Assembly (NCBI RefSeq): GCF_036345915.1
Contig: NZ_CP107785.1
Coordinates: forward strand, 5,394,001-5,458,000
Length of the DNA stretch: 64,000 nt
Reading direction: 5' to 3'
Origin: Nocardia sp. NBC_00565
GTDB lineage: Bacteria; Actinomycetota; Actinomycetes; Mycobacteriales; Mycobacteriaceae
Shown here piece by piece: positions 30,845-48,617 of this stretch. Made by a program: the position numbers and the translations under genes. Under the pieces are notes generated by a model, which was not told the DNA's origin, did not search any database, and saw only the letters and a list, made by a program, of their open reading frames with translations. Numbering within the stretch: the first letter of the stretch is position 1; every line of letters starts with the position of its first letter.

Positions 30845-31603
30845 TCAACCCAGTTCGGCGGCGAACAGCGCGCTCACCCGCTGCCACGAATCCTGCGCCG
30901 CGGCTTCGTCATACGGCTCGCGGCCCGGGAAGAAGAACGCATGCTTCGCACCCGGATAGACCACCAACTCGTGCCGCACCCCGGCCGCGGTGAGCCCCGC
31001 GCCGATCTGCGCGCGCTGTTCGGCGTCGATGACATGGTCGAGCTCCGCGAAGAACATCAGCAGCCGGACGTCGCCCTTGGCAATGCCGTCGGTCCCGGCC
31101 AGCAGCGGTTCCAGCCTACTGAGCGCGGTCCCCGGGGTCGTCAACCAGCCCGGATAGAAGATGGCCGCCGCCGCGAGATCGAGTCGGGTGGCCGCGAAAT
31201 AGGCCAGGTGCCCGCCGAGACTGAAACCCAGCACACCGGTCTGCTCGGCGGCTCCGCCCTGCTCGCGCGCATAGTCGATCGCGGCCCGGCAGTCGGCCTC
31301 GACACCGTCGCGGGTCAACTCCCCCAGTAGCTCGAAGGCGTGCTCGCGATTCTCCGCACTCTCGGCAAGTCCCTCGGCGGTCTCCGGGCCGGACCGGTGG
31401 TAGACATCCACCACGACGGCCACATACCCGAGCGCCGCGACCCGGTCGACGATCCGACGAACATCCTCGGTCAAACCCCACAGCTCAGCTCCGACGAGCA
31501 CCGCCGGCAACGGCTCCGTTCCCTCCGGCCGGGCCAGATAGCCGGTCATCGGCGAGCCGTCTACCTGGAGGTCGAACTGTCGGGAAATGATCTGGTACGT
31601 CAT
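30845..31603 (-). CDS. Dienelactone hydrolase-family alpha/beta hydrolase
   Basis: The ATG at 31603 gives 252 residues. The nucleophile elbow reads GFSLGGH, so serine replaces the cysteine usual in true dienelactone hydrolases. The acid and histidine are plausibly in FAELDHVID and GAKHAFFFPG. The family hydrolyses cyclic or small esters. It is the last gene of the leftward operon, 16 bp after the membrane-protein gene and just before the shared terminator, so it may process a product of that pathway or be a read-through neighbour. Confidence 0.85.
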   Translation of the reverse strand: MTYQIISRQFDLQVDGSPMTGYLARPEGTEPLPAVLVGAELWGLTEDVRRIVDRVAALGYVAVVVDVYHRSGPETAEGLAESAENREHAFELLGELTRDGVEADCRAAIDYAREQGGAAEQTGVLGFSLGGHLAYFAATRLDLAAAAIFYPGWLTTPGTALSRLEPLLAGTDGIAKGDVRLLMFFAELDHVIDAEQRAQIGAGLTAAGVRHELVVYPGAKHAFFFPGREPYDEAAAQDSWQRVSALFAAELG

Positions 31604-31619
31604 GGAATACACCCTATTG

Positions 31620-32741
31620 TCACGGGCGATCCGTGGCGCGCGGTGCGCGATCGACTGCGGCTTTGGCCAGCGGCCAGACATTCGCCAGGTCGACCAAGTG
31701 CGCGAGCTCGGCGTCGAAATCGTGCGCGGTCACCGGCAGCGACGGTGCGGACCCGGTGACGGCGGGCAGCAGGCCCGCCTGTCTGGCCTGCGCCGCCCGC
31801 ACCAGGCGATGAGCGTAACCGGTGGTCTCCCAGTTGGTTTCGGCCTCGGTAGGTCCAACGGCGTCGGCCGGGAGGTAGGAGCCCAGATGCAGCATCGCGT
31901 CGCGGATCTCCACGGTCATGCGAAACAGTCGGGCGGCCGGATCGGCGCGAGAGTCGGTGGGCAGCACGATCTCCGGTACCGCCGCGGTGAGATCGCGCCA
32001 CAACGGCCGTAATCGGCGACAGGTTCGGCCGTCTCGGTCTAGTCCGGCCACGGTGATCAGCGCCGAGACCAGTGGGATGGCCAGCAATGTCGCGTTGACA
32101 GTCAGGCAGACGACGAAGTCGAACTCCGCATGCGGCAATTGTGGACCCCAAGCGGGCCATCCGGTGATCAACTGTGCGGCGGAGAGTGTCTGATTGACGA
32201 GGACGAAGACAGTGCTGGTAATCAAGAGATAACCGACGACCTGCGCGTCGAAGCGCAGGTCGTCGGATCGGATCTCGCGGATGCCCAACAGGACGAACAG
32301 GACGATATTGACTGCCACCGGCACGGCGAAGGCCAACAGCACGACCAGCCCGGCACCGTGCAGACTCAGGTCGACCGAAGGTGCCAGGTCCCTGGCCGAC
32401 ATCCCCGCGATGACGATGACGGCGGTGACGGCCGCGGTCACCAGAGCGCATCTGCGTTCGCGGCGCCAGTCGATGACCGAGTCGTCCATGAATCGAGCGA
32501 TGCAGTAGAGGTTCATCGTCACCATGACGACGCACCCCAGCGCGAGCTGATTCGGCAGGCTGGTGATGCTCATCACCGGCGTGCACCGAAACAACAGCAG
32601 AGCGGCGATGCTCCACAGCAGCCCCCGATTGAGACTCCGATCGATGAACGTGTCCCGGACCAGGATCAGCCGGCCCGCCACGATGACGCCGAGGTAGCCG
32701 ATCAACGACCAGCCGAGGACTGCGGGAATCAGCGACGACAC
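31620..32741 (-). CDS. DUF6545 / MAB_1171c-like membrane protein
   Basis: From a GTG at 32741 the protein has 373 residues. The first two thirds contain about seven hydrophobic helices (SSLIPAVLGWSLIGYLGVIVAG, LLWSIAALLLF and others). The last third is soluble and helical, with the segment LRPLWRDLTAAVPEIVLP typical of the DUF6545 domain attached to MAB_1171c-type putative transporters in actinobacteria. It follows idi by 11 bp and precedes the dienelactone hydrolase by 16 bp in the same direction. Transport of the operon's lipid product is possible but not shown. Confidence 0.75.
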   Translation of the reverse strand: MSSLIPAVLGWSLIGYLGVIVAGRLILVRDTFIDRSLNRGLLWSIAALLLFRCTPVMSITSLPNQLALGCVVMVTMNLYCIARFMDDSVIDWRRERRCALVTAAVTAVIVIAGMSARDLAPSVDLSLHGAGLVVLLAFAVPVAVNIVLFVLLGIREIRSDDLRFDAQVVGYLLITSTVFVLVNQTLSAAQLITGWPAWGPQLPHAEFDFVVCLTVNATLLAIPLVSALITVAGLDRDGRTCRRLRPLWRDLTAAVPEIVLPTDSRADPAARLFRMTVEIRDAMLHLGSYLPADAVGPTEAETNWETTGYAHRLVRAAQARQAGLLPAVTGSAPSLPVTAHDFDAELAHLVDLANVWPLAKAAVDRAPRATDRP

Positions 32742-32752
32742 CCCGCATATTC

Positions 32753-33298
32753 TTACCGACGAGCGGCCACTTCCAGAACTCCACGGAGCCAAGGGGTATA
32801 GGAGTCGGGCTCCGCCGAGAGGCGATCGAGCAGTTCGGCGGTGTCGATCCAGGCGTACTCGGAGACCTCGGCTGGATCTGGCCGCGGCGCGCTATCGGGC
32901 ATGGCCCCGACCAGCACGTGGTCCCATTCGTGCTCCACCTGGTTGCCGCGCGGGTCGGCGGCCCGATACCGGTAGATGCCCGCCTCGGTCAGCTGGGTGA
33001 CGGCCAGGCCGAGTTCCTCCTTCAGCCGGATCGTCGCCGCGTCGGCCGGGTCCTGTCCGGGCGCGGGATGACCACAGCAGGTATTCGACCATCGTTGCGG
33101 GAAGCGGGTTTTGACGGCGGCTCGCCGCTGCAGCAGGACACGTCCGGATGGGTCGTACAGCAGCACCGAGAAGGCGCGGTGCAGCTGCCCCGGCTGCCGA
33201 TGTGCCTGCGCCACGGAACATGCTCCGATCGCGAGGCCCTGCTCGTCCACTAGTTCGACGAGCAGGGCCTCGCGATCGGAGCGAATCTCGGTGGTCAT
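32753..33298 (-). CDS. idi: Isopentenyl-diphosphate delta-isomerase, type 1
   Basis: The ATG at 33298 gives 181 residues with the Nudix-like fold of type 1 IPP isomerase. The catalytic cysteine is in NTCCGHPAPGQ, and metal ligands and the catalytic glutamate lie in IRLKEELG and EHEWDHVLVG. It interconverts IPP and DMAPP, so the operon supplies its own allylic primer for prenylation. Its neighbours are a UbiA prenyltransferase (29 bp upstream) and a DUF6545 protein. The first third of the coding region is a 26-bp perfect inverted repeat, described separately. Confidence 0.94.
   Translation of the reverse strand: MTTEIRSDREALLVELVDEQGLAIGACSVAQAHRQPGQLHRAFSVLLYDPSGRVLLQRRAAVKTRFPQRWSNTCCGHPAPGQDPADAATIRLKEELGLAVTQLTEAGIYRYRAADPRGNQVEHEWDHVLVGAMPDSAPRPDPAEVSEYAWIDTAELLDRLSAEPDSYTPWLRGVLEVAARR
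33222..33282 (-). repeat. 26-bp perfect inverted repeat inside idi
   Basis: The arms at 33222-33247 and 33257-33282 are exact reverse complements separated by 9 bp (CACTAGTTC). They encode residues roughly 6-25 of Idi (SDREALLVELVDEQGLAIGA). In mRNA this would form a very stable hairpin near the start of the coding sequence. Confidence 0.9.
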
Positions 33299-33327
33299 GA
33301 TCGGGGCTCCCTGGTCTCGGATTTCAC

Positions 33328-34341
33328 TCACTGTAGGCAGAACACGGCGGCGGCGGGCACGACAGCTGCCCAGGCGACGAGCGCGACCATGAATACGAAC
33401 AGTTTCGCCTGCGACCGGACCAGCGGCATGGCTTCGTCCAGGGGTTTGCCCCAGGTGCCGACCAGGCTGCGGCCCAGATAGCCGAGGACGATCAGGACAC
33501 CGACCGCGTACACGATCAGCGTCGGCGTGCACCCCACCATCGCGACGACGGAACCGGCCACGAGTGCGGCGCCGACGCTCACCCGCGTCATCGACTCGAG
33601 AAATGAGACGCGCAGGCCCAGCGCCCGGACCGATGTCATTATTCCGTGCTCGGCGTCTTCGGGAAGGTCCTCGGCGGTGTTCGCGCTGAAAACCCCGGTG
33701 GTCGTGAGCCCGAGGCCGAGAATGGCGATGAGCGCGGGTATTTCGATCGGCCGGTCGTAGAGTCGGAGCACGACTACACCGGGAAAGACCATCGTCATGA
33801 GGTAGGTCCAGGGGATCTGCCAGAATCCCGCGGCCTTGAAATGCCATGGCGGCAGCGAATATTCGAGTAGCAGCAGAGTTCCGATGGGGATGATCAGCAG
33901 CAGGTCGAAATGCCCGGTCGCCACCGCGAGATAGATCGTCGCGACGCCGATTCCGCCGGTGGTCAGATAGATCTGCCAGGCCACGAACCGCACGCCGAGA
34001 TCGCGGACCATCCGGGAGAACTTGGATTTGTATTCGGCGTCCACCCACCGATCGGCCAGGCAGTTGGCAACGTGCAGCAGTTGAATGGCGGCGGCCAGCA
34101 TCACCGCGGCCACGATCATCGGCGCCGACCAGATCTCGGCTCCGGAATGCGCGCTGAACAGGACATCGGCCACCATGACCGCGGCGGACATCGGTGCGAT
34201 CTCCGGCCGGGTCAGCCACAGGGCGTAGTTGATTTTGGTGCGTAGCCGCAGCGGAACGCCCTGTTCGCCGGGGCCCGCGGTGAAGATCCGGTGTAATCGT
34301 GCACCGAGTGCGGCGTCCTCGCCGCCGAGTGTGGTGGACAT
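33328..34341 (-). CDS. UbiA-family membrane prenyltransferase
   Basis: The ATG at 34341 follows the preceding stop by one base; the protein has 337 residues and about nine membrane helices. Both aspartate-rich motifs of the family are present: NCLADRWVDAEYK near residue 93 (N-x3-D-x3-D) and ANTAEDLPEDAEHG near residue 220, which bind the Mg2+-diphosphate of the prenyl donor. UbiA enzymes attach prenyl chains to aromatic or lipid acceptors. In this operon the acceptor might be the polyketide/amino-ketone product, but neither substrate nor chain length is shown by the sequence. Confidence 0.9.
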   Translation of the reverse strand: MSTTLGGEDAALGARLHRIFTAGPGEQGVPLRLRTKINYALWLTRPEIAPMSAAVMVADVLFSAHSGAEIWSAPMIVAAVMLAAAIQLLHVANCLADRWVDAEYKSKFSRMVRDLGVRFVAWQIYLTTGGIGVATIYLAVATGHFDLLLIIPIGTLLLLEYSLPPWHFKAAGFWQIPWTYLMTMVFPGVVVLRLYDRPIEIPALIAILGLGLTTTGVFSANTAEDLPEDAEHGIMTSVRALGLRVSFLESMTRVSVGAALVAGSVVAMVGCTPTLIVYAVGVLIVLGYLGRSLVGTWGKPLDEAMPLVRSQAKLFVFMVALVAWAAVVPAAAVFCLQ

Positions 34342-34342
34342 G

Positions 34343-35149
34343 TCAGGTCTGCTCCTGGTGCGCGCGCTGACGTGCCCGGGAAATACTGCGGCGGAAGAAC
34401 GGCCGCGACAGATCCTCCGGGAGATTCGCCCACCGCAGGAAGAATGTGGTGAGCGGATCCATCGTGATGTGATGGCGGCCGCGTTCCAGACCACGTACCG
34501 CGGCTTCGCCGACCTTGGCGGCGGGCAGCGGTTTGATCGACCCCGTGATGGCCTTGGTCTCAACGGGTTTGCGCAGGTTCTCCCTGGCGAGTCCGGGCGT
34601 ATCCGTATCGGCCGGATACAGCACCGAGACGGTCACCCCGGCGGGCTCGACCTCGTACCGCAGGCACAGACCCAGCTGACGCACGCCGGCCTTGGTGGGG
34701 CCGTAGCTCGAGTATCCGGGGATGCCGAGGAAGGCCGATGTCGAACTGAGCAGCAGCACATGTCCGCTGCCACGTTCGACCATGCCGGGCAGCACACACC
34801 GAATGGCATGCACCGAACCGAGGTAGTTCGCATCGCTCTGGATGCCGAACTCGTCGCTGTCGATATCGAGGAACAGACCCGGCAGTGTGAGGCCCGCACA
34901 GCAGGCGATCACCGCGCAGGCCCCGTTGCGTTCTTCCAATTCCTTGATGGCGGTTGCCAATCCCTGCCGGTCGGTGACATCGGCGACGCACCGATCGGCC
35001 CCGATCCGCTCGGCGGTCGCGCGCAGCGGCTCCTCCCGGCGGGCGATGATCGACACTCGCGCGCCACGCAGGGCGAAGGCGGTGGCGACCGCTGCCCCGA
35101 TGCCCTCCGAGCCGCCGGTGACGATCACGTGCTTATCCGTCCAGTTCAC
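34343..35149 (-). CDS. 3-ketodihydrosphingosine reductase-like SDR
   Basis: The 268-residue SDR has TGGSEGIGAAVA at residues 11-22 and catalytic LSSTSAF and YSSYGPTKAG. The stretch around YPADTDTPGLARENLRKP then VETKAITGSIKP is distinctive. It matches the pattern YPPDTDTPGFxxENxxKPxETxxIS of 3-ketodihydrosphingosine reductases, which reduce the ketone made by serine palmitoyltransferase. Its operon contains an alpha-oxoamine synthase, which strengthens the assignment. The C-terminal segment (TTFFLRWANLPEDLSRPFFRRSI) may be a membrane-associated anchor. Substrate is inferred, not proven. Confidence 0.8.
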   Translation of the reverse strand: MNWTDKHVIVTGGSEGIGAAVATAFALRGARVSIIARREEPLRATAERIGADRCVADVTDRQGLATAIKELEERNGACAVIACCAGLTLPGLFLDIDSDEFGIQSDANYLGSVHAIRCVLPGMVERGSGHVLLLSSTSAFLGIPGYSSYGPTKAGVRQLGLCLRYEVEPAGVTVSVLYPADTDTPGLARENLRKPVETKAITGSIKPLPAAKVGEAAVRGLERGRHHITMDPLTTFFLRWANLPEDLSRPFFRRSISRARQRAHQEQT

Positions 35150-35152
35150 AAT

Positions 35153-36118
35153 TCAGCTCCCGCCGACGGCGGCGAGTTCACCGAGGCGGTCCCGCCAGGC
35201 GTGGTAGCCGGCGGCCGTGCCGTCCTCCGGTATTCCGACGAACGCCTTGTCGATCAGGGCGGCGGCCTCGTCGATCGAGCGGCCGGTATAGGTCCGCACG
35301 GCGACTTCGGTGTGCGCGGTGGCACTGTCGGCCTGCTGCCGGATCTTCGCGACCATGGTCGATCCCGCCGCCAACTGCTGGCGGAACTGCGGCACCAGGG
35401 CCAGGATCGCTTCCAGGTCACTGACTTCCACGCCGCCGGCGAAGGTGGTCGCGATGCCGATACCGTTCCACAGATCGGCATGCCTGCTCGGGTCGAATTC
35501 GGCGATCCGGGTGGCGACACCATCGACCGAGCCGCCGCTGATGAACCAGAGTGCGCGCCCGATCCCCTGATCCGACGCGCGCCGCAGCGGTGCGGTATCC
35601 CCCATCCAGGACGGGTACCGCGTGTCGACGTGCTTGCGGGCGATGTATTTCTCGGTACGGAAGAAGGCGTTGTAGAAGCCGTATCCGTCGATCGCGAGCC
35701 AGCGGTAGACCGGGTGCTTCGGAAAGACCTTCCGCCAAATCGGTTTCGGGATCTTGCCCATCGCAAGGCCGACCCCGACATACATGGTCAGGTCGTGTTT
35801 GGCCGCTGGGCCGGTGAACAGATCCGCGGCACGGTGGCTGAACGGGGTGATCGAGTCGACGGCGGCCAGCCCCGTCGCGGCGCCTTCGAACGCGAAGCCC
35901 TGGTACTGCTCGGGCAGCTGCTGGATGTGCTCGATCAACTCGTCGTTGTTCTTGGTGCACACGGCGAAGTGAATGCTGCTGGACAGGTGGGTGGCGACCC
36001 GCTGGAGTTCGGCGGCGGTCGCGGGGCTCGGCGCCGCGAAGCCGGGGCGGTCCAGCGGGTTCTCCTCGATGCGGGTACCGAGCAGAGTGGAGCGTAAGGG
36101 TCCGATCAATGACGGCAT
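35153..36118 (-). CDS. DUF1702-family protein, homologue of enediyne-cassette UNBL
   Basis: The 321-residue protein begins MPSLIGPLRSTLLG and contains QGFAFEGAATGLAAVD, YVGVGLAMGKIPKP, DGYGFYNAFFRTEKYI, WFISGGSVDGVATRIAEF and DLWNGIGIATTFAGG. This is the pattern of the DUF1702 family, known as UNBL in enediyne clusters, where its function is unassigned. It follows UNBU and UNBV homologues, the other two members of the conserved enediyne cassette, but no enediyne PKS is present. It probably handles an acyl or polyene intermediate; that is inference from context only. Confidence 0.82.
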   Translation of the reverse strand: MPSLIGPLRSTLLGTRIEENPLDRPGFAAPSPATAAELQRVATHLSSSIHFAVCTKNNDELIEHIQQLPEQYQGFAFEGAATGLAAVDSITPFSHRAADLFTGPAAKHDLTMYVGVGLAMGKIPKPIWRKVFPKHPVYRWLAIDGYGFYNAFFRTEKYIARKHVDTRYPSWMGDTAPLRRASDQGIGRALWFISGGSVDGVATRIAEFDPSRHADLWNGIGIATTFAGGVEVSDLEAILALVPQFRQQLAAGSTMVAKIRQQADSATAHTEVAVRTYTGRSIDEAAALIDKAFVGIPEDGTAAGYHAWRDRLGELAAVGGS

Positions 36119-36157
36119 ATTTCCTCGATTCTGTTGCGGTGCTCCAGATTCCGGTGA

Positions 36158-37273
36158 TCAGGACCGCGCGACTTCCTTCTCCGGCTCGGGCACGGCCGGT
36201 TCCTCCGCCACGGGCGGCGGCACCTCGTCATCCCGCGCCGTGGTGGCCGCGCGATTGTCCAGCCATTCGCGAATGTTGCGGTACCACCAGAACATTCCGC
36301 GACTCGCGCACACGAGCACCAAGGCGAAGAACAAGCCGAACGACACGTGCAGGGCCATCAGCACGCCGTACAGCACACCCACCGAGGCGCCGAAGACGAT
36401 CTGATCCCGCTTCTTGAACGGAGTCGTCGCCGGGTCGGTGATCATGTAGTTGGTGTAGAGCACGAACGCGATGCCGGTCGCGGGCAGCAGCGCCGCGATG
36501 ATCGAGATGTTGTCGTCCAGCAGCCCGCGCACCACCGCCTGCAGCACGTACGCACCCAACCAGGCGAGGATGAGCGGTGTCTTCTTGGTCAGCTTGGCGT
36601 TCAACATGGTTCCCGCGGACAGCAGGCCCAGCACGATCAGCGCATCGGCCGCGCCCGAGATGTTCTCCACGAAGTGATACGGACCGACGATGGCGATCGC
36701 CGGGAAGACCAGCAGCGCGACCACGATGCCGAAGTTCGACGGGTTCATGAAGTGCTTCACTTTCCCGTTGATCTTGGCGCGCAGCACCCATTTGGTGCCG
36801 ACCGCGACCGTGATGCCGAACATGATCGGCATGAACTGATCCGCCGCGTACAAGAGGAAGTTGAAGGCCAGACCGGTAATGTGCGCGGGCAGCAGGAACA
36901 CCATCAGGCCGCGAAGTCCGTTACCGCGGTATGCGGCCGGGCGGCGATAGGCCCACGCCGCCAGCGTTTCCAGAACGAGCTCCACCGTGTACGCGGTGGC
37001 CGCGCTCAGGAACGGCCACAGCCATGGCTGTTCGAATCCGAGCCACAGAAATCCCAGAATGTTGAACAACGTCAGCGAGGCCGCGAAGTTGCGCAGGGCG
37101 AGATACCTCGGATCGCGTCCTTCTTTGTTGACGCCCAGCCACTTTCGCCGAAAGGCCTGCGCCGGTGTCGGCGGTGCGGCCTGCTGCTCGGCGGGCGCGG
37201 ATCCGTTGCCGTTCGTGCTCGTGCTGACATCGGCTGTTCCGTTGGCGCTGTGGCCGTTTCCTTGAACACTCAC
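36158..37273 (-). CDS. UNBU-like membrane protein (RnfD/NqrB-like fold)
   Basis: The 371-residue protein has a Gly/Asn/Ser-rich N-terminal 45 residues, about ten membrane helices, and an acidic Pro-rich C-terminus. The segments GKVKHFMNPSNFGIV and NYMITDPATTPFKKRDQI are recognisable from the RnfD/NqrB-type family to which enediyne UNBU proteins belong; the latter carries the Asp-Pro-x-Thr pattern of flavin attachment in that family. The start codon overlaps the UNBV stop by ATGA. A redox or transport role is plausible; it is not known for UNBU. Confidence 0.8.
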   Translation of the reverse strand: MSVQGNGHSANGTADVSTSTNGNGSAPAEQQAAPPTPAQAFRRKWLGVNKEGRDPRYLALRNFAASLTLFNILGFLWLGFEQPWLWPFLSAATAYTVELVLETLAAWAYRRPAAYRGNGLRGLMVFLLPAHITGLAFNFLLYAADQFMPIMFGITVAVGTKWVLRAKINGKVKHFMNPSNFGIVVALLVFPAIAIVGPYHFVENISGAADALIVLGLLSAGTMLNAKLTKKTPLILAWLGAYVLQAVVRGLLDDNISIIAALLPATGIAFVLYTNYMITDPATTPFKKRDQIVFGASVGVLYGVLMALHVSFGLFFALVLVCASRGMFWWYRNIREWLDNRAATTARDDEVPPPVAEEPAVPEPEKEVARS

Positions 37274-39279
37274 TGGTGCACCTCCCGGGCATCGGAGTCG
37301 AGAACGAACGTGTGCTGCCCGGCTTGCAGCTGTACCTGCTGGGTGTGCACGGCGCCGTGGTTGTCACGCCACGCGATCTGTACCGCGAGCGGGATCGTGG
37401 GATCGATATCGCCGAGCCCGATATGGATGTCGGTGGACCGCTTTCCCGCGTGCCCGCTGCCGCCGTCGACCTGCGCGATATGCGGTTTGCCGTCCGGCGT
37501 CGGCACCGTGACTTCAGCGCCGAGCGCAGGGGAACCGAGTACCGGCCGGCCCGCCACCGTGGTGTCGCCGGGACCCGCGGTGGTCGGCGCAGTGAACAGC
37601 CGCAGGCCGAGATACTGCCCGCGATGCGGTGCGTCGTTGCGGTAGTAGACCGGCGCTTCCCACTGCCGGGCCACCGCGAAGCTCAGCGCGCCGGTACCGG
37701 TCGGGTCGCCGACCGCGATGCCACGGGTGGGTGTCGGCGCGAAGATGTCGAGGGCCGGGGAGATATTGGTGAACTTGCCGCTGTCGTCCTGGGCCAGGAA
37801 ACCGATGCGGTTGTTACCCGCCAGGTCGGATTCCTCGGTGAACTTCGGCCAGGCCCACGGGTATTTGGTGAAGTCGTCGTTCATCGTGGCCAATTCCTGC
37901 ACCTGCGGCCAGCGGGTGTTCTTGCCCTTGAACATGCCGTTGGTCTGCACGATCTGCGGCCGGCCGCTGTTGTCGAAGTCGGCGATCTTCGTATCCCAGC
38001 CCCAGCCGTCCCAGGCGACGCCCTGCGCCACCGCCCGGTTCTTGAAGGGTGCGACACCCGAATTGAGCTCGTCCGCCGCTTGTTTCGGATCGGCGGCGGT
38101 GTTGTAGAACGCGAGGTTGGATTCGAGGATGCCCCAGCGCTGCGCGATATTGCTGACAAAGAGGTCGGGCATGCCGTCGCCGTCGAGGTCGCCGAAATCG
38201 GCGCCCATACCCTTGAACGAATCATGGCCGAGCACAGACGATTTCGGATCGGTCGGGCCGCGTTCGCCTTCGGCGAGGTCGAACTTGATATGCCCCGCTG
38301 TCGACTTGTTGACGAACAGGCGGTCCTTGCCCATATCGTTGGCGACGTACAACTCGGGCAGCTGATCGCCGGTGAGGTCCTGGGTGGCCGTCGCCAGCGT
38401 CCAGCCGTTGTATTTCCCTTCCGGGAGCGCGTCGACGACCTCGCGGTACACGGCATTCGGTTCGGCGCCGCCCGAGCTCTGCTGGAAGGTGAGCAGACGA
38501 CTGGTTCCGGCATTGGTCGCGGTGGAGAACGATTCGTTCAGCGTCAGGCTGTGCGCACCGTCGGGACCGATGAAATCGCTGTCGGGGAAGTAGTTTCCGA
38601 GGTAGACATCCGGGTTGCCGTCACCGTCGAAATCGGCGACGGAGGCGGCCAGGGTGAACCACCGCGCGCCCTGGTAGCTGCCGTCCTTGGTCGCCGGCGG
38701 TTCGACCATTTCGACCGGCTTGAACGCCTTGTTGTCCAGATGTCTGGCGCCGGCGCGGGGCAGGAACAGCACCGGGGTGCGGCCGCCGTAGTAGACCATC
38801 AGGCCGATGCGCCCGGAATGGTCGAAATCACCGGGGACGCAGCCGGTCGGCGCCATCCGGTCGTCGGTCGGCAGGGGTGCCGGGTCGAGGACGAACGGCG
38901 CGTAGCGGCTGGTGTCGCTGTCCGGGGTCGGGGTCACGATCACCGTATCGGATCGGGAATCGACCAGGCACAGATCATCGGCGCGGCCGTTGCCGTCGAT
39001 GTCGTTGATGGCCGTCGCGGCGTTGACCGAGGACAGCCAGGCGACGATGTGCTCGTATCGCGGCTCGATATGGCGAATCTTGTGCTCCGGCAATCCGGGT
39101 GGCAGTGCGATCGGCATCTCGGTGAAATGGAACCGACTCGCCAGCGAGCTGTTGGCGTCGGTCTCCACGGGAGCGATCATGGCCGAATGCGCCGGGACGA
39201 ACAGGACCGCCATGAGGGTTAGTGATGCCAAGGGCACCAACGCTTTTCGCAACAGCGAAGAACTGACCGGCAACTTCAC
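37270..39279 (-). CDS. UNBV-like secreted FG-GAP/ASPIC-repeat protein
   Basis: The GTG at 39279 overlaps the stop of the synthase gene as GTGA; the protein has 669 residues. A signal-type hydrophobic segment (LLRKALVPLASLTLMAVLFVPA) is followed by integrin-like FG-GAP/VCBS repeats with calcium-binding loops such as DFDGDGNPDVYLGN and DLDGDGMPDLFVSN, and a C-terminal ASPIC/UnbV domain (GAEVTVPTPDGK...GLGD...VQIAWRDNHG). This is the architecture of the enediyne-cassette protein UNBV. It is probably exported and folded as a beta-propeller outside the membrane. Its enzymatic role is unknown. Confidence 0.86.
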   Translation of the reverse strand: MKLPVSSSLLRKALVPLASLTLMAVLFVPAHSAMIAPVETDANSSLASRFHFTEMPIALPPGLPEHKIRHIEPRYEHIVAWLSSVNAATAINDIDGNGRADDLCLVDSRSDTVIVTPTPDSDTSRYAPFVLDPAPLPTDDRMAPTGCVPGDFDHSGRIGLMVYYGGRTPVLFLPRAGARHLDNKAFKPVEMVEPPATKDGSYQGARWFTLAASVADFDGDGNPDVYLGNYFPDSDFIGPDGAHSLTLNESFSTATNAGTSRLLTFQQSSGGAEPNAVYREVVDALPEGKYNGWTLATATQDLTGDQLPELYVANDMGKDRLFVNKSTAGHIKFDLAEGERGPTDPKSSVLGHDSFKGMGADFGDLDGDGMPDLFVSNIAQRWGILESNLAFYNTAADPKQAADELNSGVAPFKNRAVAQGVAWDGWGWDTKIADFDNSGRPQIVQTNGMFKGKNTRWPQVQELATMNDDFTKYPWAWPKFTEESDLAGNNRIGFLAQDDSGKFTNISPALDIFAPTPTRGIAVGDPTGTGALSFAVARQWEAPVYYRNDAPHRGQYLGLRLFTAPTTAGPGDTTVAGRPVLGSPALGAEVTVPTPDGKPHIAQVDGGSGHAGKRSTDIHIGLGDIDPTIPLAVQIAWRDNHGAVHTQQVQLQAGQHTFVLDSDAREVHQ

Positions 39280-40670
39280 GAGTGATGACCTTCTTCCGTG
39301 GTGAGACCGTCGAACACCTGACGCAGGGTGTCCAACGCATGATCGAGCTGTGCTTCGGTATGACGGCAATTGATGAAGAAGCGCAGTCGCGCCTGGTCTG
39401 CGGGAACCACGGGATGGCCGATGGCATTGGCCATGACATTGCGCTGCAACAGTTCCATCGATGCCCGCACGGCGGGTTCGTTCGCGCCGGTGATGATCGG
39501 GGTGATCGGTGTGCCCTGTCCGTTCCCGGTGTCGAAACCGAGTTCGCCCGCCCGCCGATAGAAGTACTGCGCGTTGTGCCGCAGTGCCGCAACACGTTCC
39601 GGTTCGTCGTGCAGAACGGCCAGCCCCTCGAGCGCGGCCGCGGCCGCCGACGGCGCTGGTGATGCGGTGTACATGCTCAGGCCCGACGCCGAGTACTTGA
39701 ACCCTTCGACGAGCTCCCGGTTGGCCGCCAGGTAGCCACCGACGCTGCCGAGCGCCTTGGACAGCGTGCCCATCCACACATCGACCGCATCGCCCGGCAG
39801 ATCGAACAGCTCACGCACGCCGAGCCCGCGTTCGCCGAGCACACCGAACGAGTGCGCTTCGTCGATCATGATCGAACAGTTGTATTTCCTTGCCACCTCG
39901 ATGATTTCGGGCAGCCGGACCACATCGCCGTCCATGCTGTACACGCCTTCGATCAGCACGAGGGCCCGGTCGAAGCTGCGCCGCGACATCGACAACATCG
40001 CTTCCAGCGACTCGGGATCGTTGTGCCGGAAGGTGACTCGCTTGCAGCCCGCCCATTCGGTGCCGGAGACGATGCTGTTGTGGATCAGCGAATCGCAGAT
40101 CGCGATATCGCGCTTGCCGAGCAAGAAGGCGACCGCCGCCGCGTTGGTGAGGAAGCCGCTGGCCGTCACGATGGCGGCCTCGGTGTCATAGATCCGGGCG
40201 ATCTCCCTTTCCAGCTCGCCGTAGAGCGGCAGTTCCCCGGCGACCATGCGGACCGCGGCCGCCGAGGTCCCGTAGCGGCCGATCGCGGCGATCGCGGCGG
40301 CATGCACACGCGGTTCGGCGGCGAGGTCGAGGTAGCCGAAACTGCTGAAGTTCAACATATCTCGGTCCGAGAACCGGGTCACCGGTCCACTGATGCCCTC
40401 GTGCGGCAGGTAGTACGGGTTGAGCACACCGGCCTCGCGGGTCCAGGTGTCGAAGGCGGCGAACTTCTCGTTGGCGTCGAGCACACCGGGGTGGTCCCGG
40501 AAGGTCGTCTGCAGCGTCGGACTGTCGGTGCCCCGCCCGTTCGACGCACCGCGGTCGGGTGTGGTCGGCGCGGTCGCGGTGCCGGTGGCCGCACTCGCAC
40601 CGTTGCCTTGACCGTGCTTGGCCATCAGGGCGCGGGCCAGTGCACGGGGATCGATGCTCTCAGTGGTCAT
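39276..40670 (-). CDS. Alpha-oxoamine synthase (serine palmitoyltransferase-like)
   Basis: The 464-residue PLP enzyme belongs to the AONS/SPT/KBL/ALAS family, which condenses an amino acid with an acyl thioester and releases CO2. The PLP lysine is in WMGTLSKALGSVGGY; the Asp/His pair is in MIDEAHSFGVLGERG; the histidine over the ring is in DSLIHNSIVSG. The first 60 residues are a low-complexity tail. It lies 11 bp after the PKS gene, so its acyl donor is probably the PKS-bound chain rather than a free CoA ester. With the KDSR-like SDR downstream it would make a sphingoid-type amino alcohol. The amino acid used is not shown. Confidence 0.9.
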   Translation of the reverse strand: MTTESIDPRALARALMAKHGQGNGASAATGTATAPTTPDRGASNGRGTDSPTLQTTFRDHPGVLDANEKFAAFDTWTREAGVLNPYYLPHEGISGPVTRFSDRDMLNFSSFGYLDLAAEPRVHAAAIAAIGRYGTSAAAVRMVAGELPLYGELEREIARIYDTEAAIVTASGFLTNAAAVAFLLGKRDIAICDSLIHNSIVSGTEWAGCKRVTFRHNDPESLEAMLSMSRRSFDRALVLIEGVYSMDGDVVRLPEIIEVARKYNCSIMIDEAHSFGVLGERGLGVRELFDLPGDAVDVWMGTLSKALGSVGGYLAANRELVEGFKYSASGLSMYTASPAPSAAAAALEGLAVLHDEPERVAALRHNAQYFYRRAGELGFDTGNGQGTPITPIITGANEPAVRASMELLQRNVMANAIGHPVVPADQARLRFFINCRHTEAQLDHALDTLRQVFDGLTTEEGHHS

Positions 40671-40680
40671 CCAAGATTCC

Positions 40681-43600
40681 TCACACTGCTGTCTGTTCGG
40701 TAGTTGCTTCTTCGTACGCGATCTGGGCGGCGATTTTGGCGCCGAGGCCGGCCAGCGAGAGTCCGGCCCCGATCGAGAGGACCGACATCTTGACGCCGAG
40801 GCTTTTCACCACGCGCGCGCCGAATTCCATGGCCATCAGCGAATCCAGCCCCAACTCCATGGTCGGAGTCGCCAGATCCACGGTGTCCGGGTCGACCGCG
40901 AGCACGACCGCGAGCTGTTCGGCGAGCAGGCAGGCGACCACCTCGCCGCGGTATTCGGGATCCAGCGCCAGGATCTCGGCGCGCAAGGCGCTGGTACCCG
41001 ATCCCCCGCCGCCCGCGGCGGCCACCAACTCGACGAACCTCGGCGCCCGCGCCGAGGAGCGGTGCGCGAGCGCCCATTGCGCCCAGTCGATATCGAGCAA
41101 CGCGACCTGCGGCACGTCGATGCGCAGACATTCGCGTAGCAGCAGAGTCGCGAAATCCATATCCAGCGAGCCGTATCCGGTCATCTCGGCATACCGCGAC
41201 ACCGCGCGGGAGTCGGCCATGCCGCCGTCGCCGCGCATGAATCCCCAGTCCACCGACAGTCCCGGCCTGCCCTGCGCCCGGCGCGCCCAGGCGAGTGCGT
41301 CGAGCGCGGAATTGGCTGCCGCATAACCCAATTGGGGCGCGAGCCCGGCGATGCCGCTGGCGGAGGAGTACAGCACGAACATATCGAGCTCGACACCGGC
41401 GGCGGTGGTGGCCCGATCGAGGTTGATCGCGCCGATCACCTTCGGCTCGAAGATCTCGCGCAACGATTCGGCGGTGATCTCGGGTATCTCGGTGTTGTTC
41501 ACCACCCCGGCGGCGTGAATGACACCGCGCAGCGGCGCCGGTCCGGCCTGGATGCGCGCGATGAGGTCCGCGACCGCGTCCTGATCGGCCACATCGAGGC
41601 GTTCCTCGCGTACCTCGACGCCCTCGCCGGCGAACTGCGCCAGCTGTTGCCTGGCCGCATCACTGGCGGCGCCACTGCGCCCGACGAGCACCAGGTGCCG
41701 GACCCCGGCACGCACCAGCTGGCGCGCGGTGGCCAGGCCGAACGCGCCGAATCCGCCGGTCACCAGATAGCTTGCGTGCGGATCGAATTCGACTTCCCGC
41801 GGTATGTGGCGCACGGCAGGGTGCTTTTCACGCAGATCGAGCACCACCCGGCCGATCTGCGCGGACCGCGCGACCGTTTCGAATGCCTCGGTCAGCTTGT
41901 CCAGGGGGAATACCGTATTCGGCAGTGCCGAGTACTCACCGCGGAACATCGCGTCCACCACCCGGCGGGCGGCCCGGCGCACCTGCTCCGGACGCCGTGC
42001 CAGGATGCGGTCGATATCGACAGCGAAGAACGCGAGGTTCCGGTCGAAGGGCCGCAGATCGATGGTGCCCGAACCGTAGATTTCTGCCTTGCCGATGTCC
42101 ACGATTCGACCGAATTCGCCTGCGACACGGAAGTTCTGCTGCAGGATCTCCCCCGGCGCCGAACTGTAGACGACATCTACGCCCGCCCCGCCGGTCAGGC
42201 GCATCACCTCGTCGACGAAGCCGATCGAGCGCGAAGGCAGTACCTCGTGTGCGCCGAGCGCCCGCACCTGGGCGCGGCGTTCCTCGGTGCCCGCGGTGGC
42301 GATCACGCGCGCCCCCGCGCGCAGTGCGACCTGGACGGCGGCCATCCCCATACCGCCCGCCGCACCGTGGATCAGCACCGTTTCGCCCGGCTGGAGCCTG
42401 GCCAGCTCGACCAACCCGATTTCGGCGGTGAACAGCGGCATTACCGAGGTGCAGTGCAGCGGATCGAAGGTGCCGGGCGGGAAGATATCCATCGGGGTGG
42501 TCGCGCCGGTATCCGGCCGGAGCGTCACATACCGCCGCACGATTCCCGGCGCGACGACCGAAATCTCGTCGCCGGGTGCGATATCGGCGATGTTGCTGCC
42601 GACCCGGGCCACCACGCCGTAGCCGTCCATGCCGATCTCGGTGCCGTAGAACGTGCCGTCGAGCTCCTTTTCGGTGAGCACACCGAGAACCTTCAGGGTG
42701 TCCTTGTAGTTCAGGCCGACCGCCTGCATCCGGATCTCGACCTCATCGGGGCCGGGTGCGATCCGATCGGTGGTGCGCAGCGCGAGTTCCGGCAGCAGCC
42801 GGGAGCGTGGAATGTCGAGCCGGAACGACTGTTCGGCATCGGTCAGCGGTCGCGCGACATCCCAGCGAGCAAGATGGGCGGGGAGGGTATGCCGCCAGCG
42901 GATCGTCCAGCACGCGCCCGCCCGCAATGCCACTTCGTCGATGGTGGTGTCGGTGTAGACCTGTTCGAGGATGTCGGCCGCGGCGGTATCGGGCTCGGTA
43001 TCCACCAACCGCCACTGACCGGTGGGCAGTTCGTTGAGCAGTTCGCGGCGCGCGCCGGTCAGCACCGAATGCTCGAACCAGGCGAATCGGTCGATCGGCA
43101 GGCACAGCGCATGCTCGGTAACCACGACAGCGTGGATCACTAGCGGCGGATCGGTGGCCGCGGGCGCGTCGGGCGCCTCCCGCGCCACGGCCTCGTCGGA
43201 CAGCAGTCCCTTGATCGCCTGGGCGACCTGGGCCAGGCCGTACACATTTCGCACACCATCGTGCTCGGTACCGGCGACGACCACGATCCGCAGCCGCTCG
43301 ACCTCGGGCCGGTCGTGTGCGCCGCGGAGTAGTTCGAGCAGTTGCGCACTGTCGAGCGCCGAGGCGTGCTCGCCCACCGTCACCAATTCGGCGTGGATGC
43401 GGGCGTTGGTGATCTCCTTGGCCCGCTGCGAGATCTCCGCACCGAGATTGATGACGAGCAGGAATTCCTCGACGCCGGGCAGGTCGGGCGGTGCCGATTC
43501 GCCGTTGGCCACGATCTCCCACACCGGTTCGTAGAACAGCCCGTCGAGCTGGTCGGATAGGGCAGGCCGTGGCGTGAGCGCGCGGAACCGCACGCCCGAC

Positions 43601-46600
43601 ATCGTCAGTGCGACAGCGCCGTTCGCCGCCGCGATCCGGATATCGGCGCGCAGCGGATCGTCCGGATCGCGGGTGACGACCACGACCGGGTCGGCCGGCA
43701 TCGGTCCGTTCCAGCGGATCCCGGCGATCGATGCAGGCACCACCACCTCGGCGTCTTGGCCGGAGTCCGGCTGTGTCGCAGCAGATCTCGCATAGAGAGC
43801 GGCGAAGCACTGCAGTGCCGAATCCACGACTGCCGGGTGCGCGAGATGCCGCCGGGTCAGCTGCTGCGATGAATCCAACTGCGCGACTACACTGTCCGAG
43901 CCGACCCGGACCTCGCGCAGCAATCGGAACTGGGGGCCGTAGTCGAGTCCATGCCCGGCCATACTGCGGTACAGCTCGTCAACCGCCACCTGGACCGAAT
44001 CCGCCTGCGGCGCAACGTCGACAGTGATGGCGTCGGTCTCCGCCTCGATGAGTCGTCCGTGCGCGTTGACGGTCCACGGCCCGCCGGTCGCGGGCCGGGA
44101 GCGGATGGTGAACCGGTGTGTGTTCTCCTCGACGCTGATCCGGACGACCGGGACGTCGTGCTCGTCGATGACGAGCGGGGCGACGAATTCGACCGATTCG
44201 AGCCCGAAGGTGTCCCGGCCCGTGCGCAGTGCGGCGGCACTGAGGGCGGCGTCGAGGTAGGCCGCCCCTGGCAGCACCACCGCACCGGCTACGACATGAT
44301 CGCGCAACCACGGCAGATTCGACACCGACAGTTGGACTTCCCATTCCGGGGATACCGACGCGGTGCGATCGCCCAGCATCGCGAATCCGCCGGGGGTGCC
44401 GATCCGATCCAGCTCGGTTTCGGGTTCCTGGGTCCAAGCGAACCGGCGCTGCCACGGATACCGGGGCAACTCGATGTGCTCGATACCCGGATCGATCGCA
44501 CGGGGCAGGCGGTCGCCGTCCAGTGCGCCGGCGCGATACAGCTCGCCGACCGCGGTCAGGATGTTCTCGCGATCGTCGCCACCACGCACCAGCGTGCTGA
44601 TCGCGGCACCGGAAATGCCCTGCTGCACCAGGATTTCCCGAATGCTGCCGCCCACGACGGGATGCGGGCCCAGTTCGAGGAAGACTCGGTGGCCGGCGTC
44701 GAGCAGAGCGCCGATCGAATCCGCGAACCGGACACGCTCCCGGACATTGCGGCACCAGTACTCCGCGCCCCAATCCTGTGGTGCGGCTTGAATGCCGGTC
44801 ACCGTCGAGTACGCGGGAACGGTGGCAGCACCCGGTGCGAGCGGCGCCAGTGCGGTACGGAGATCGTCGAGGACCGGGTCCATCAGATGACTGTGGTAAG
44901 GCACTTCGACCCGCAGCGCTCTGGCGAAAACGCCGTCGGCGGTGAGGCGCTCGGTGATCGCCGCGAGCACGGGCGCGTCGCCTGCCAGGGTCACCGCGGT
45001 GGGGCTGTTGACCGCGGCGATGCAGACGCCGTCGAGGTCGGCGATCAGTTCGCTCGCCTCGGCCTCGGCCAGACCCACCGCGAGCATGCCGCCGGTCCCG
45101 GCCGTGGTGGCCTGCAGGCGGGACCGATGGTAGCTGACCGACACCGCTTCCGACAGCGTCAACGATCCGGACACGTAGGCCGCGGTCACCTCACCGACAC
45201 TGTGCCCCACGACGACCGCGGGCCGGATGCCGAGGTCGGCGAATTCCGCGGTGAGCGCGGCTTGGAGCAGGAAATTCGCGGGTTGCGCGATTTCGGTACG
45301 GGAGATGCGGGAGTCCGACTCATCGCGGGCCATCTCGTCCAGGATCGACCAGCCCGCGAGTTTCGTGAATTCCCGATCGATTTCGCGTGCCAGCTCAGCC
45401 GCCGGGCCGTCCTCGGCCAGCAGGTCGCGGCCCATCGCCCACCACTGCGGCCCCATACCGCTGTAGACGAACACCGGATCGGTGTGCCCTTCCGCGATGG
45501 CACGGGCCGGGGCCGGGCCACCACCCGCCGCAAATTCCGCTAGCTGCGAACGTAATTCGGCAGGGTCGTGCGTGCGGAAGACGGTCCGCAATGGATGGTG
45601 CGCGCGCCGAACCCAGGCTGCGTCGATCAGCTTGTCGATCGGTTCGGTGTCGGTCGCCGCTATCAGCTGCGCGGCCATGGTGCGCAGCGCCTGATCGTTG
45701 CGCGCCGACAGCGGCAGCAGCGGTACGCGATTTGCCGCTGTGCTGGAACGGGTTTCGGACGGGGCGGGCGCCGGGCCGATGAGCACGTGCGCGTTGGTGC
45801 CGCCGTAGCCGAAGCTGTTGACCGCGACCACCGGCCGCACCAGCGGTTCGACCGCCATCGGCACGCGCAACCGCAGCTCGTCGAACGGGATCTCCGGATT
45901 CAGCCGGTCCAGCCAGGCCTGCGGTGCGATCGTCCGGTGGTGCACGGTCAGTGCGGCCTTGATGACGCCGGCCACGCCGGCCGCCGCCTCGGTGTGACCG
46001 ATGTTGTTCTTGACCGACCCGACCGGCAGTGGTTCGGTGCGGCCCTCGACCGCGCCGTATACCGTGCCGAGGGCCGTCATTTCGGCGGGATCGCCGACCG
46101 GTGTTCCGGTGCCGTGCGCCTCGACGTAGCCGATCTCCTGCGGTGCGATGCCCGACATGGTGTGTACGCGCCGGGCAAGTTCCTCCTGCGCAACGGGGTT
46201 GGGGACGGGCACGGCCAAGGTGCGGCCGTCCTGGTTCACGCCGCTGCCGCGGACCACGGCATAGATGCGGTCACCGTCGCGTACGGCGGCGTCGAGTGGC
46301 TTGAGTATCACCACGCCGGCGCCCTCGCCACGACCGTAGCCGTCGGCGGAGGCGTCGAACGACTTGCAGCGCCCGTCGACGGAGAGGAAGCGGCCCTTGC
46401 ACATGGAGATGAAGGTTTCCGGCTGGAGCATGGCATTGGCGCCGCCGACGATGGCGGAGCTGCATTCACCCAGCGCCAGGGATTGGACGGCCTGATGCAG
46501 TGCCACCAGCGAGGATGAGCAGGCGGTGTCGATGGTCATGGTCGGACCGTGCAGGTCGAGCAGGAACGCGATGCGCGCCGAGAGCAGCGTATGTGACGAG

Positions 46601-47037
46601 CTGGTCGGCGTATGACTGTTGATCGCGGACCGAATCACGTTGCGGCCCACCGCGTTATCGTTCATGAAGCCGCCGACGAAGACGCCGATGTCGCGGCCCG
46701 CGATCCGCCCGGCCATCCCGCTGTCGTCGAGCGCCTCCCACGCGACCTCCAGCAGCAGTCGTTGCTGCGGGTCCATGATCGACGCCTCCCGCTGGGAGAT
46801 GCCGAAGAAGTCGGCGTCGAACTCCCACAGCGACTGGGTCAGAAACCCGCCGCGGCGGGTGTACATCCGACCGGGCGCATCCGGATCCGGATCGTAGAAC
46901 TTCTCCAGGCTCCAGCGATCCGACGGCACTTCCACGATGCCGTCGCCCTTGTGGACCAGGAAATCCCAAAAGGTACCGGGGCCATCGATTCCACCCGGAA
47001 ATCGGCACCCGATACCGACGATTGCCGCATCGGCCAT
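40681..47037 (-). CDS. Iterative fully reducing type I polyketide synthase
   Basis: The 2118-residue protein has one module in the order [47 protein letters not shown] (residues about 1-420). [14 protein letters not shown] with YHSH in the specificity loop (about 520-840). [17 protein letters not shown] near 935. [17 protein letters not shown] near 1575. [17 protein letters not shown] near 1790. [14 protein letters not shown] near the end. There is no thioesterase, so release must be by the downstream oxoamine synthase or another protein. Length and domain order resemble mycocerosic-acid-type synthases, not enediyne PKSs (KS-AT-ACP-KR-DH). AGAGGACC precedes the ATG. Confidence 0.95.
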
Positions 47038-47214: not shown

Positions 47215-47274
47215 TCGGCGGTAACACCGTTATACGTCCAATGCCCGGATCGCCTCGTCCGCAGTCAGCTCGTC

Positions 47275-47330
47275 AATAACAATGTCATCGGTTCTCATGA
47301 CATTGTTATTCGAACAGGTGACATTGTTAT
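47275..47330. repeat. Operator-like repeats before the SnoaL-like gene
   Basis: AATAACAATGTCA (47275-47287) and its exact complement at 47298-47310 form a 13-bp inverted repeat with a 10-bp spacer, and a third copy, TGACATTGTTAT, lies at 47319-47330, exactly 21 bp after the second. The array ends 17 bp before the SnoaL ATG. The adjacent TetR protein is the most likely binder. Confidence 0.65.
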
Positions 47331-47347: not shown

Positions 47348-47887
47348 ATGAACTCTGGTGAATTCGCCCTCGATCCGGCCGCGGAGCCGATCGCGGACGG
47401 CGACTGGCTGCGCGACTTCGTGGACCGCTACATCGCCGGCTGGAACACCGCGGACGCCGCCGCGGTGGCGGCGTGCGTCACTGAGGACACCCGCTGGCTC
47501 GACCCGTCCGAGGCCGAGCTGATCACCGGCCGTGCCGGAGTGGCGAAGTTCGTCGAGGACACCACGCGAGCATTCCCAGATGTCCACTACACCACTGTCT
47601 TCGAGCCCGTGATCACGCCCGACGCGCTGGCCGCGATCGTGCCGTGGCGGATGACCGGCACGCATCTCGGCTTGATCGACCCGCCCGGATTCGCGGGCAC
47701 CAACAAGAAGTTCGACCTGTTCGTGGTCGACATCTGGCAGTTCCGCTCCGGCCTGATCTGGCGCAGCAAGGCCACCTGGGATCTCAACGAGCTGCTGCTG
47801 CAACTCGAATTGCTGCCCAAGCGCAACGGTTTCGCCGAACGCGCGATGGCCCGCGCGCAGCGCCTCGCGGTCAAGCTTCGCCGGTGA
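47348..47887 (+). CDS. SnoaL/NTF2-like protein
   Basis: The 179-residue protein has the cone-shaped SnoaL/NTF2 fold signature: YIAGWNTADAAAVAACVTEDTRWLDPSEAE, then RAGVAKFVEDTTRAFPDVHY, and a C-terminal WRSKATWDLNELLLQL. Members include polyketide cyclases, isomerases and hydrolases with a buried pocket; no catalytic assignment is possible here. It is divergent from the PKS operon across a shared regulatory region and converges with a TetR gene with no gap between stops. Confidence 0.82.
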   Translation: MNSGEFALDPAAEPIADGDWLRDFVDRYIAGWNTADAAAVAACVTEDTRWLDPSEAELITGRAGVAKFVEDTTRAFPDVHYTTVFEPVITPDALAAIVPWRMTGTHLGLIDPPGFAGTNKKFDLFVVDIWQFRSGLIWRSKATWDLNELLLQLELLPKRNGFAERAMARAQRLAVKLRR

Positions 47888-48595
47888 TCACGCGCAGACG
47901 CTGGTCGGCGCGATCACCTCTTCGAGGGCGCGTGCCACCGAGCGCTCGACGGTCGCGCGTTCGGCGCCCATACCGATCAGGATGTTGACGATCGAGGGCA
48001 ACAGCACCTCGGCCATGCCTTGGTCGCCGTAGAGGCCGGCCATATCCAGTTGGATGAACCCGTACAGTCCGGTCCAGAACTGCGCGGCGGCCGCGCGGGC
48101 ATTCGTGCCGCGCACCAGATCCGCGTCCATTGCGCGCTGGGTCGCGTGCACCAGGTAGTCGAAGCTTTCCGCGAAGTACTCGAAATCGGAATCGCTCCCG
48201 CCGGACAGCACATTGCCCCGGCGCACCTTCACCTCCGCCTTCGGCGATTCGGTGGCGAACATCAGCCGGAACAGCTCGGGTTTTCGCACCGCCTCGTCCC
48301 GAAAGACGAAGCCGAGCACCAAGATTTCGGCGATCGGGTCGTCGGCGACCTTGCATTCGGCCAGCCGCGCGACCAGCTGGGCGAAACCTTCCGAGCCGAC
48401 GGCCTGGATCAGGCCGGGCATACCACTGAAATTGGAATAGATCGCCATGGTGGAAACCCCGCAGATCCGTGCGACGCGGCGCACCGTCAGCGAGGCCAGT
48501 CCTTCCGTCGAAATGAGTTGTACTGTCGCCTCTATCAGTCGATCACGCATCGAACCCGACAGTGCGGGACCGGCCGCTGCCGCACTGTTCGTCAT
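47888..48595 (-). CDS. TetR-family regulator
   Basis: The ATG at 48595 (GAGGTGA upstream) gives 235 residues. The N-terminal DNA-binding region is clear (MRDRLIEATVQLISTEGLASLTVRRVARICGVSTMAIYSNFSGMPGL), followed by a helical ligand domain. It lies 22 bp after the MFS gene in the same direction, so the two are probably one operon. The repeated operators in front of the SnoaL-like gene are candidate targets, and through them it may control the PKS operon. Confidence 0.9.
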   Translation of the reverse strand: MTNSAAAAGPALSGSMRDRLIEATVQLISTEGLASLTVRRVARICGVSTMAIYSNFSGMPGLIQAVGSEGFAQLVARLAECKVADDPIAEILVLGFVFRDEAVRKPELFRLMFATESPKAEVKVRRGNVLSGGSDSDFEYFAESFDYLVHATQRAMDADLVRGTNARAAAAQFWTGLYGFIQLDMAGLYGDQGMAEVLLPSIVNILIGMGAERATVERSVARALEEVIAPTSVCA

Positions 48596-48617
48596 GACTT
48601 CACCTCGCCGCGCGCAC

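Follow-up and report, generated by a model that had tools for sequence, protein, structure and literature searches.

The sphinganine analogues of fungi, such as fumonisin and sphingofungin, are made by a polyketide synthase (PKS), an oxoamine synthase and a short-chain dehydrogenase/reductase (SDR) resembling 3-ketodihydrosphingosine (KDS) reductase, and we know of no E3, E4 or E5 proteins, as found in enediyne biosynthesis, in these pathways. Here we describe an operon of Nocardia sp. NBC_00565 in which genes of the first kind adjoin homologues of those three enediyne proteins; it lies in a 64 kb stretch of DNA (the window; positions 5,394,001-5,458,000) of a 9.7 Mb genome assembled as one contig. 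The KDS-reductase-like SDRs of the fungal pathways are FUM13 and SphF (PMC12134224). Pseudomonas fluorescens MYb115 no longer makes its C24, C26 and C28 sphinganines when sgaA or sgaB is deleted; SgaB prefers L-serine, and SgaC is the proposed 3-KDS reductase (PMC12134224). SgaABC resembles the Nocardia operon in pairing a monomodular iterative PKS with a serine palmitoyltransferase (SPT)-like alpha-oxoamine synthase (AOS), and both clusters also encode an SDR. This likeness is one of description, and the text of the SgaABC report available to us names no E3/E4/E5, UbiA or Idi (PMC12134224). Since SgaABC was published in 2025, sphinganine synthesis by PKS, AOS and SDR is not new; the same logic had been read into the Nocardia genes by an earlier note on this DNA, and SgaABC provides its experimental precedent (PMC12134224).

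Judging from gene order, we take E3, E4 and E5 to be UNBL, UNBV and UNBU, respectively. The enediyne PKS (PKSE, or E) together with E10 alone yields a heptaene, while a 2024 paper reportedly obtained iodinated and polyyne products from the enediyne cassette. If these products hold, E3/E4/E5 would supply oxidation and iodination. The reactivity and cytotoxicity of enediynes make the roles of the three proteins hard to study there. E3/E4/E5/E/E10 is listed as the set common to all enediynes characterized at that time (PMC5181780).

The core genes and their separation from the enediyne PKS

Ten minus-strand genes, spaced by 1-40 bp or overlapping, occupy 30845-47037, as determined from open reading frames (ORFs), Pfam and NCBIfam with re-read starts; the earlier note had listed ten such leftward genes, and all of them were recovered. 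The PKS (40681..47037, 2118 aa) is a type I enzyme for which we propose iterative use of its single module and an SgaA-like role. Pfam and motif comparison identify ketosynthase (KS), acyltransferase (AT), dehydratase (DH), enoylreductase (ER), ketoreductase (KR) and acyl carrier protein (ACP) domains in this order, all with intact motifs, DTACSS among them, and no thioesterase domain, bearing out the previous description of a fully reducing PKS, ER included. GHSVG and YHSH are linked to malonyl by the AT motif rules, and the presence of both in this AT suggests that it is of the malonyl type.

After a gap of 10 bp follows the AOS (39276..40670, 464 aa), an Aminotran_1_2 protein closest to BioF/KBL/SPT models. 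Its best solved structure hit is 7poa (BioF/KBL, E 1.2e-69), with the SPT 3a2b at E 3.5e-68, and a near full-length match with a conserved PLP-lysine region (3a2b aligned over residues 80-455) identifies it as a fold-type I pyridoxal phosphate (PLP) enzyme. The solved 'aminoacyl transferase sphA' 9pep (E 4.5e-27), presumably a fungal enzyme, is also among the hits; apart from this structure hit, the fungal pathways are likened to the Nocardia operon mainly by description. An attempt to read the amino-acid choice of the AOS from its active-site residues was dropped, as the sequence was not decisive.

Next come the three enediyne homologues, referred to here as the trio. UNBV (37270..39279, 669 aa), whose GTG start lies in a 4-bp overlap with the AOS stop, has FG-GAP repeats, an ASPIC/UnbV domain and a hydrophobic N-terminal anchor or signal. 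UNBU (36158..37273) is modeled as a membrane protein and in structure comparison shares the fold of RnfD/NqrB (Pfam NQR2_RnfD_RnfE), with 12-17% identity over the aligned part; the operon lacks genes for Rnf or Nqr partners. UNBL (35153..36118; DUF1702, Pfam E 1e-95) gives an all-helical model (pLDDT 91.8) for which the structure search returned no convincing match. The SDR (34343..35149) is proposed to act as a 3-ketosphinganine reductase in an SgaC-like role. Among its many SDR structure hits, KDS reductase TSC10 (8jat) ranks fourth by E-value (5.9e-21).

What the operon shares with the enediyne cassette is the adjacent set of E3, E4 and E5 homologues, in which 15-20% of columns are near-invariant across both groups; the columns kept in Nocardia as well as enediyne-type rows number 133 of 669 for UNBV, 47 of 321 for UNBL and 74 of 371 for UNBU. 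It differs in gene order, which is AOS-V-U-L-SDR in Nocardia as opposed to L-V-U-E at many enediyne-type loci, and in having an ER-containing PKS, an AOS and an SDR in place of the enediyne PKS, with E10 not found. At 42 of the 43 other full-trio loci, a PKSE match lies within the fetched stretch (the exception is L052), and E10 is matched at 21 of the 43, many of which are cut by the flank. A full PKSE was seen at none of the 27 Nocardia PKS-AOS loci, where matches were partial (at most 181 bits) or, in three, absent; nor did three queries, assigned as E10 by their position after an enediyne PKS, give a tblastn match there at a threshold of 1e-6. Most of these 27 stretches start inside the PKS, their upstream side lying outside the scope, and some may be species duplicates.

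The earlier note had reported both the enediyne PKS and TEBC as missing, and this agrees with our searches of the 64 kb, in which the enediyne PKS gives no more than a 27%, 176-bit match to the operon PKS and the E10 queries match nothing. A search of the genome with one query found no PKSE orthologue, the best match being 35% over residues 48-902 of 1993. A 4HBT-family thioesterase is encoded 2.5 kb to the left of the operon (27894-28295); its gene gives no match to the E10 queries and has no counterpart in any of 31 downstream stretches of relatives. New, in our assessment, is that E3/E4/E5 occur here while neither the enediyne PKS nor E10 accompanies them. A literature search, which covered titles and the starts of abstracts and left subscription papers mostly outside, turned up neither this gene set nor E3/E4/E5 outside enediyne clusters. 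The earlier note did not recognize the set as characterized; for the sphingoid logic itself this is not supported. The combination is real, conserved and unexplained; its sphingoid half resembles known systems, and the attachment of the trio is novel.

Conservation and ancestry in Nocardia

A DUF1702 alignment was scanned against one genome per species, and the best 80 of 562 loci were examined. UNBV, UNBU, UNBL, AOS and SDR occur together at 22 of these 80, all in Nocardia and at 50% identity or more, and the PKS is present at 20 of the 22, the remaining two being cut by contig ends. No AOS match was found at the other 58 (all at or below 39% identity). The closest named DUF1702 relatives of the window are those of N. 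vinacea (91%) and N. anaemiae (90%).

Within the genus, 92 of 150 genomes have AOS matches (E 1e-90), which fall into clade A (at least 70% identity, 35 genomes), clade B (about 46-54%) and a third set (39-42%) located mostly within open frames of about 1,460-1,760 aa, with one of 1,100. Near 3.16 Mb (L126, 6708-11225), the genome of the window encodes a protein of about 1,500 aa that unites a ketosynthase region with an AOS-like domain on a single polypeptide; similar matches occur in other Nocardia. DUF1702 is found in 51 of the 150 genomes. Of the 35 clade A genomes, 34 have it no more than 5.3 kb away from the AOS, and the linkage that the earlier note called for is borne out across the genus. 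In the 35th (G009), DUF1702 sits at the edge of a separate 5.6 kb contig. The 67 DUF1702 hits divide into 34 beside a clade A AOS and 33 elsewhere, including that of G009; some of these 33 belong to enediyne-like cassettes of Nocardia (L101, L103, L197).

The boundaries of the unit were counted in 31 downstream and 28 upstream stretches from the 34 other clade A genomes, a set that overlaps with the 22 loci above and is not independent of them; the G009 downstream stretch, the G040 upstream stretch and those of G049 and G058 are absent (contig ends or not included). The SDR is kept in all 31 downstream stretches. On the other side, a SnoaL-like gene divergent from the PKS (47348..47887, plus strand; start re-read from the 47282 of the longest ORF, and so putative) and a TetR-family regulator gene (47888..48643, minus strand) are kept in all 28 upstream stretches, and an MFS gene adjoins in 12 of them. 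The conserved unit is PKS-AOS-UNBV-UNBU-UNBL-SDR plus the divergent SnoaL-like and TetR genes; it extends to 48643 on the right and ends on the left with the SDR in most relatives. Of the extent drawn in the earlier note, the PKS-to-SDR part belongs to the conserved unit and the UbiA, Idi, DUF6545 and hydrolase genes lie outside it; the conserved SnoaL-like and TetR genes were not included in that note.

A KS tree of 59 rows, built by a quick search with a long-branch warning naming row L194, places the PKS outside the enediyne clade, an outcome in favor of the earlier note, which a position within that clade would have refuted. The 8 trio-bearing PKS rows form a single branch (SH-aLRT 97), and the 15 PKSE rows form a separate one (100). 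The neighbors of the trio branch are, in order, PKSs of another type (A', to which that of L202 belongs), PKS-AOS rows of a sister genus and the Nocardia clade B PKS-AOS pairs; two condensation-domain-linked PKSs group with clade B, and the modular PKS rows of L112 and L114 bear the clade B name by labeling and not by kinship. The trio was not seen at the 14 clade B Nocardia PKS-AOS loci, and the genomes of some of these (for instance L118, L120 and L121) have no DUF1702 at all. Two sister genera contribute three further PKS-AOS loci (L191-L193), likewise with no trio seen. Rhodococcus has proteins 55-57% identical to the AOS of the window. In each of the UNBV, UNBL and UNBU trees, the Nocardia rows form one fully supported branch, and the gene set has a single origin on these trees. 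They are unrooted (no outgroup); with midpoint rooting, an enediyne-type group of 10 rows is the neighbor of the Nocardia UNBV clade, and a group of 32 rows that of the UNBU clade. Because the PKS groups with trio-less PKS-AOS pairs and apart from the enediyne PKSs, the PKS-AOS platform appears to be the older part, to which the trio was probably added once.

Several related loci depart from this arrangement. A sister PKS, 60% identical to that of the window, occurs without an AOS alongside at L202, L203 and L206 (G089, G130 and G064, respectively); at L202 an AvrD-family gene directly follows it in the AOS position, and genes for a luciferase-like monooxygenase and an MMPL transporter are close by (Pfam, L202 only). 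At L204 (G089 C62, 5716-14254), a related PKS precedes a condensation-domain protein, a possible alternative release enzyme. The genome of the window carries a second DUF1702 gene at 6.269 Mb (L098, 11164-12180), whose neighbors encode an LppX-like lipoprotein, a ketosynthase, an AMP-ligase and an ABC transporter; no UNBU or UNBV match lies in the 20 kb covered. At L099 (8466-12365, G011), four DUF1702 genes stand in tandem ahead of genes for an MFS transporter and a protein of the tryptophan-halogenase family, and UNBL stands beside UNBV at L199 (9411-12370, G075), with no UNBU and no PKS match in the 16 kb covered.

A proposed sphingoid lipid pathway

Gene content, linkage, intact motifs and the UNBU fold are read directly from the DNA. 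The reading of them that we favor, at a probability of about 0.6, is a TetR-controlled Nocardia lipid pathway that makes a sphingoid base whose chain is oxidized by the trio at the membrane. By analogy with the logic of SgaABC, the iterative PKS would join malonyl units into a long acyl chain that is largely reduced. Using an amino acid bound to PLP (most likely serine, though glycine or alanine is possible), the AOS would attack this chain on the PKS carrier protein and release a 3-keto amino lipid, which the SDR would reduce to a sphingoid-type amino alcohol. For the trio, to which the earlier note assigned no role, we infer one from its conservation and from the enediyne literature. An ancestor of one Nocardia clade would have gained E3/E4/E5, probably from an enediyne-type cassette; E5 in the membrane, E4 anchored and probably outside, and E3 could then form a membrane redox module that modifies the lipid chain oxidatively. 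The chemistry might be the same as in enediynes, most likely extra desaturation up to an alkyne and/or halogenation, and in some lineages UbiA, with Idi, might add a further decoration. The more specific proposal that E3/E4/E5 are a portable, PKSE-independent chain-oxidizing module (alkyne and/or iodine), and that sphingoid lipids with an alkyne or a halogen are the product of the operon, we advance tentatively, at somewhat less than even odds.

It is unlikely, but worth serious consideration, that the product is an ordinary saturated or mono-unsaturated sphingoid base and that the trio exports it, anchors it or protects against a reactive or toxic amphiphile, leaving the chain untouched. The placement of the trio at the envelope, indicated by the UNBV anchor or signal and the UNBU membrane model, would suit such a role, as would the existence of clade B PKS-AOS pairs that do without it. 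However, enediyne clusters keep the trio in the PKS cassette, the conservation of many residues between the two groups suggests a common chemistry, and the MFS gene neighboring the unit in 12 of 28 relatives may already serve as the exporter. Rather improbable is an AOS that works on acyl-CoA and does not release the PKS chain, the PKS product being used elsewhere. Acyl-CoA is the normal substrate of the family, and purified PfSgaB took acyl-CoA surrogates (PMC12134224), but the Nocardia PKS and AOS genes are only 10 bp apart and are paired in clade A, clade B and sister-genus lineages, the PKS has no thioesterase domain, and the sister PKS at L202 has the AvrD-like gene in the AOS slot. Least credible is an enediyne-like or polyyne polyketide that the AOS and SDR merely trim, since, for all that E3/E4/E5 are otherwise linked to PKSE (42 of 43), this PKS contains an ER and falls outside the PKSE branch, E10 was not found, and the single genome query revealed no PKSE orthologue.

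The proposal of a sphingoid base with a trio-oxidized chain has difficulties of its own. The pathway is read from its genes, and the enediyne role of the trio is the one reportedly found in the 2024 paper. With all its reducing domains, the PKS may not provide the polyene that the trio would need as a substrate. RnfD/NqrB proteins bind FMN covalently through an S/T-G-A-T motif, and this was not seen after E203 in UNBU (12 rows, position judged by eye). The amino-acid specificity of the AOS is unreadable from its sequence, and general SDRs match the SDR as well as or better than KDS reductase does. Descent of the trio from an enediyne cassette is likely, on trees that are unrooted, and E10 was not found in the 64 kb (tblastn 1e-6, three queries), the rest of the genome lying outside that search. 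Finally, the model leaves the conserved SnoaL-like gene without a function.

If the favored pathway is correct, the known range of PKS-made sphingoid lipids would come to include Nocardia, a large genus of actinobacteria with opportunistic pathogens among its members. Moreover, the trio-less PKS-AOS version in other Nocardia would isolate the chemistry of the three enediyne proteins within one genus, since the lipid difference between the two versions should reveal the function of the trio.

Variable genes, regulation and flanks

Beyond the SDR, the operon of the window continues with genes that are kept unevenly in the 31 downstream stretches. The UbiA-family prenyltransferase-like protein (33328..34341) is below the Pfam cut-off (31.3 against 34.2 bits) and shows N-x3-D-x3-D and D-x3-D motifs by eye; it recurs in 10 stretches (at least 63% identity, more than 400 bits), a count that leaves aside short matches where it overlaps the SDR and, in L143, a 35% match on the opposite strand. 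The isopentenyl-diphosphate isomerase Idi (32753..33298, NCBIfam) recurs in 5. Both counts are lower bounds, as the stretches include at least one (L141) of no more than 1.7 kb. We regard these two genes as lineage-specific extras: with UbiA in 10 and Idi in 5 of 31 relatives, prenylation, suggested previously, is not supported as part of the core pathway, and we reject a prenylated lipid as the core product in general.

The last two genes, which the earlier note had counted as operon members, are not conserved. The DUF6545/MAB_1171c-family membrane protein (31620..32756; Pfam, NCBIfam) is present in none of the 31 downstream stretches, and the dienelactone-hydrolase-family protein (DLH; 30845..31603, Pfam) in one, weakly (45 bits, at the locus edge). 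As DLH adjoins a Rho gene in N. anaemiae (L019), about 6 kb beyond Idi, it is probably chromosomal flank and outside the pathway.

Between the PKS and SnoaL-like genes lie four copies of a 13-bp palindrome, RTRACNNNGTYAY (47221..47330; copies from 47221, 47276, 47297 and 47318), out of five in the whole 64 kb. The same 600-bp region contains RTRACNNNGTYAY in 15 of 28 relatives, and it was not found there in the other 13; we propose it as a putative TetR operator of this subclade. To the left of the operon, 29554-30717 (plus strand) encodes a protein resembling Rho termination factor that is short, at 387 aa, and is kept at 92% in N. anaemiae; its longest ORF and that of a gene for a CMAS-family methyltransferase overlap.

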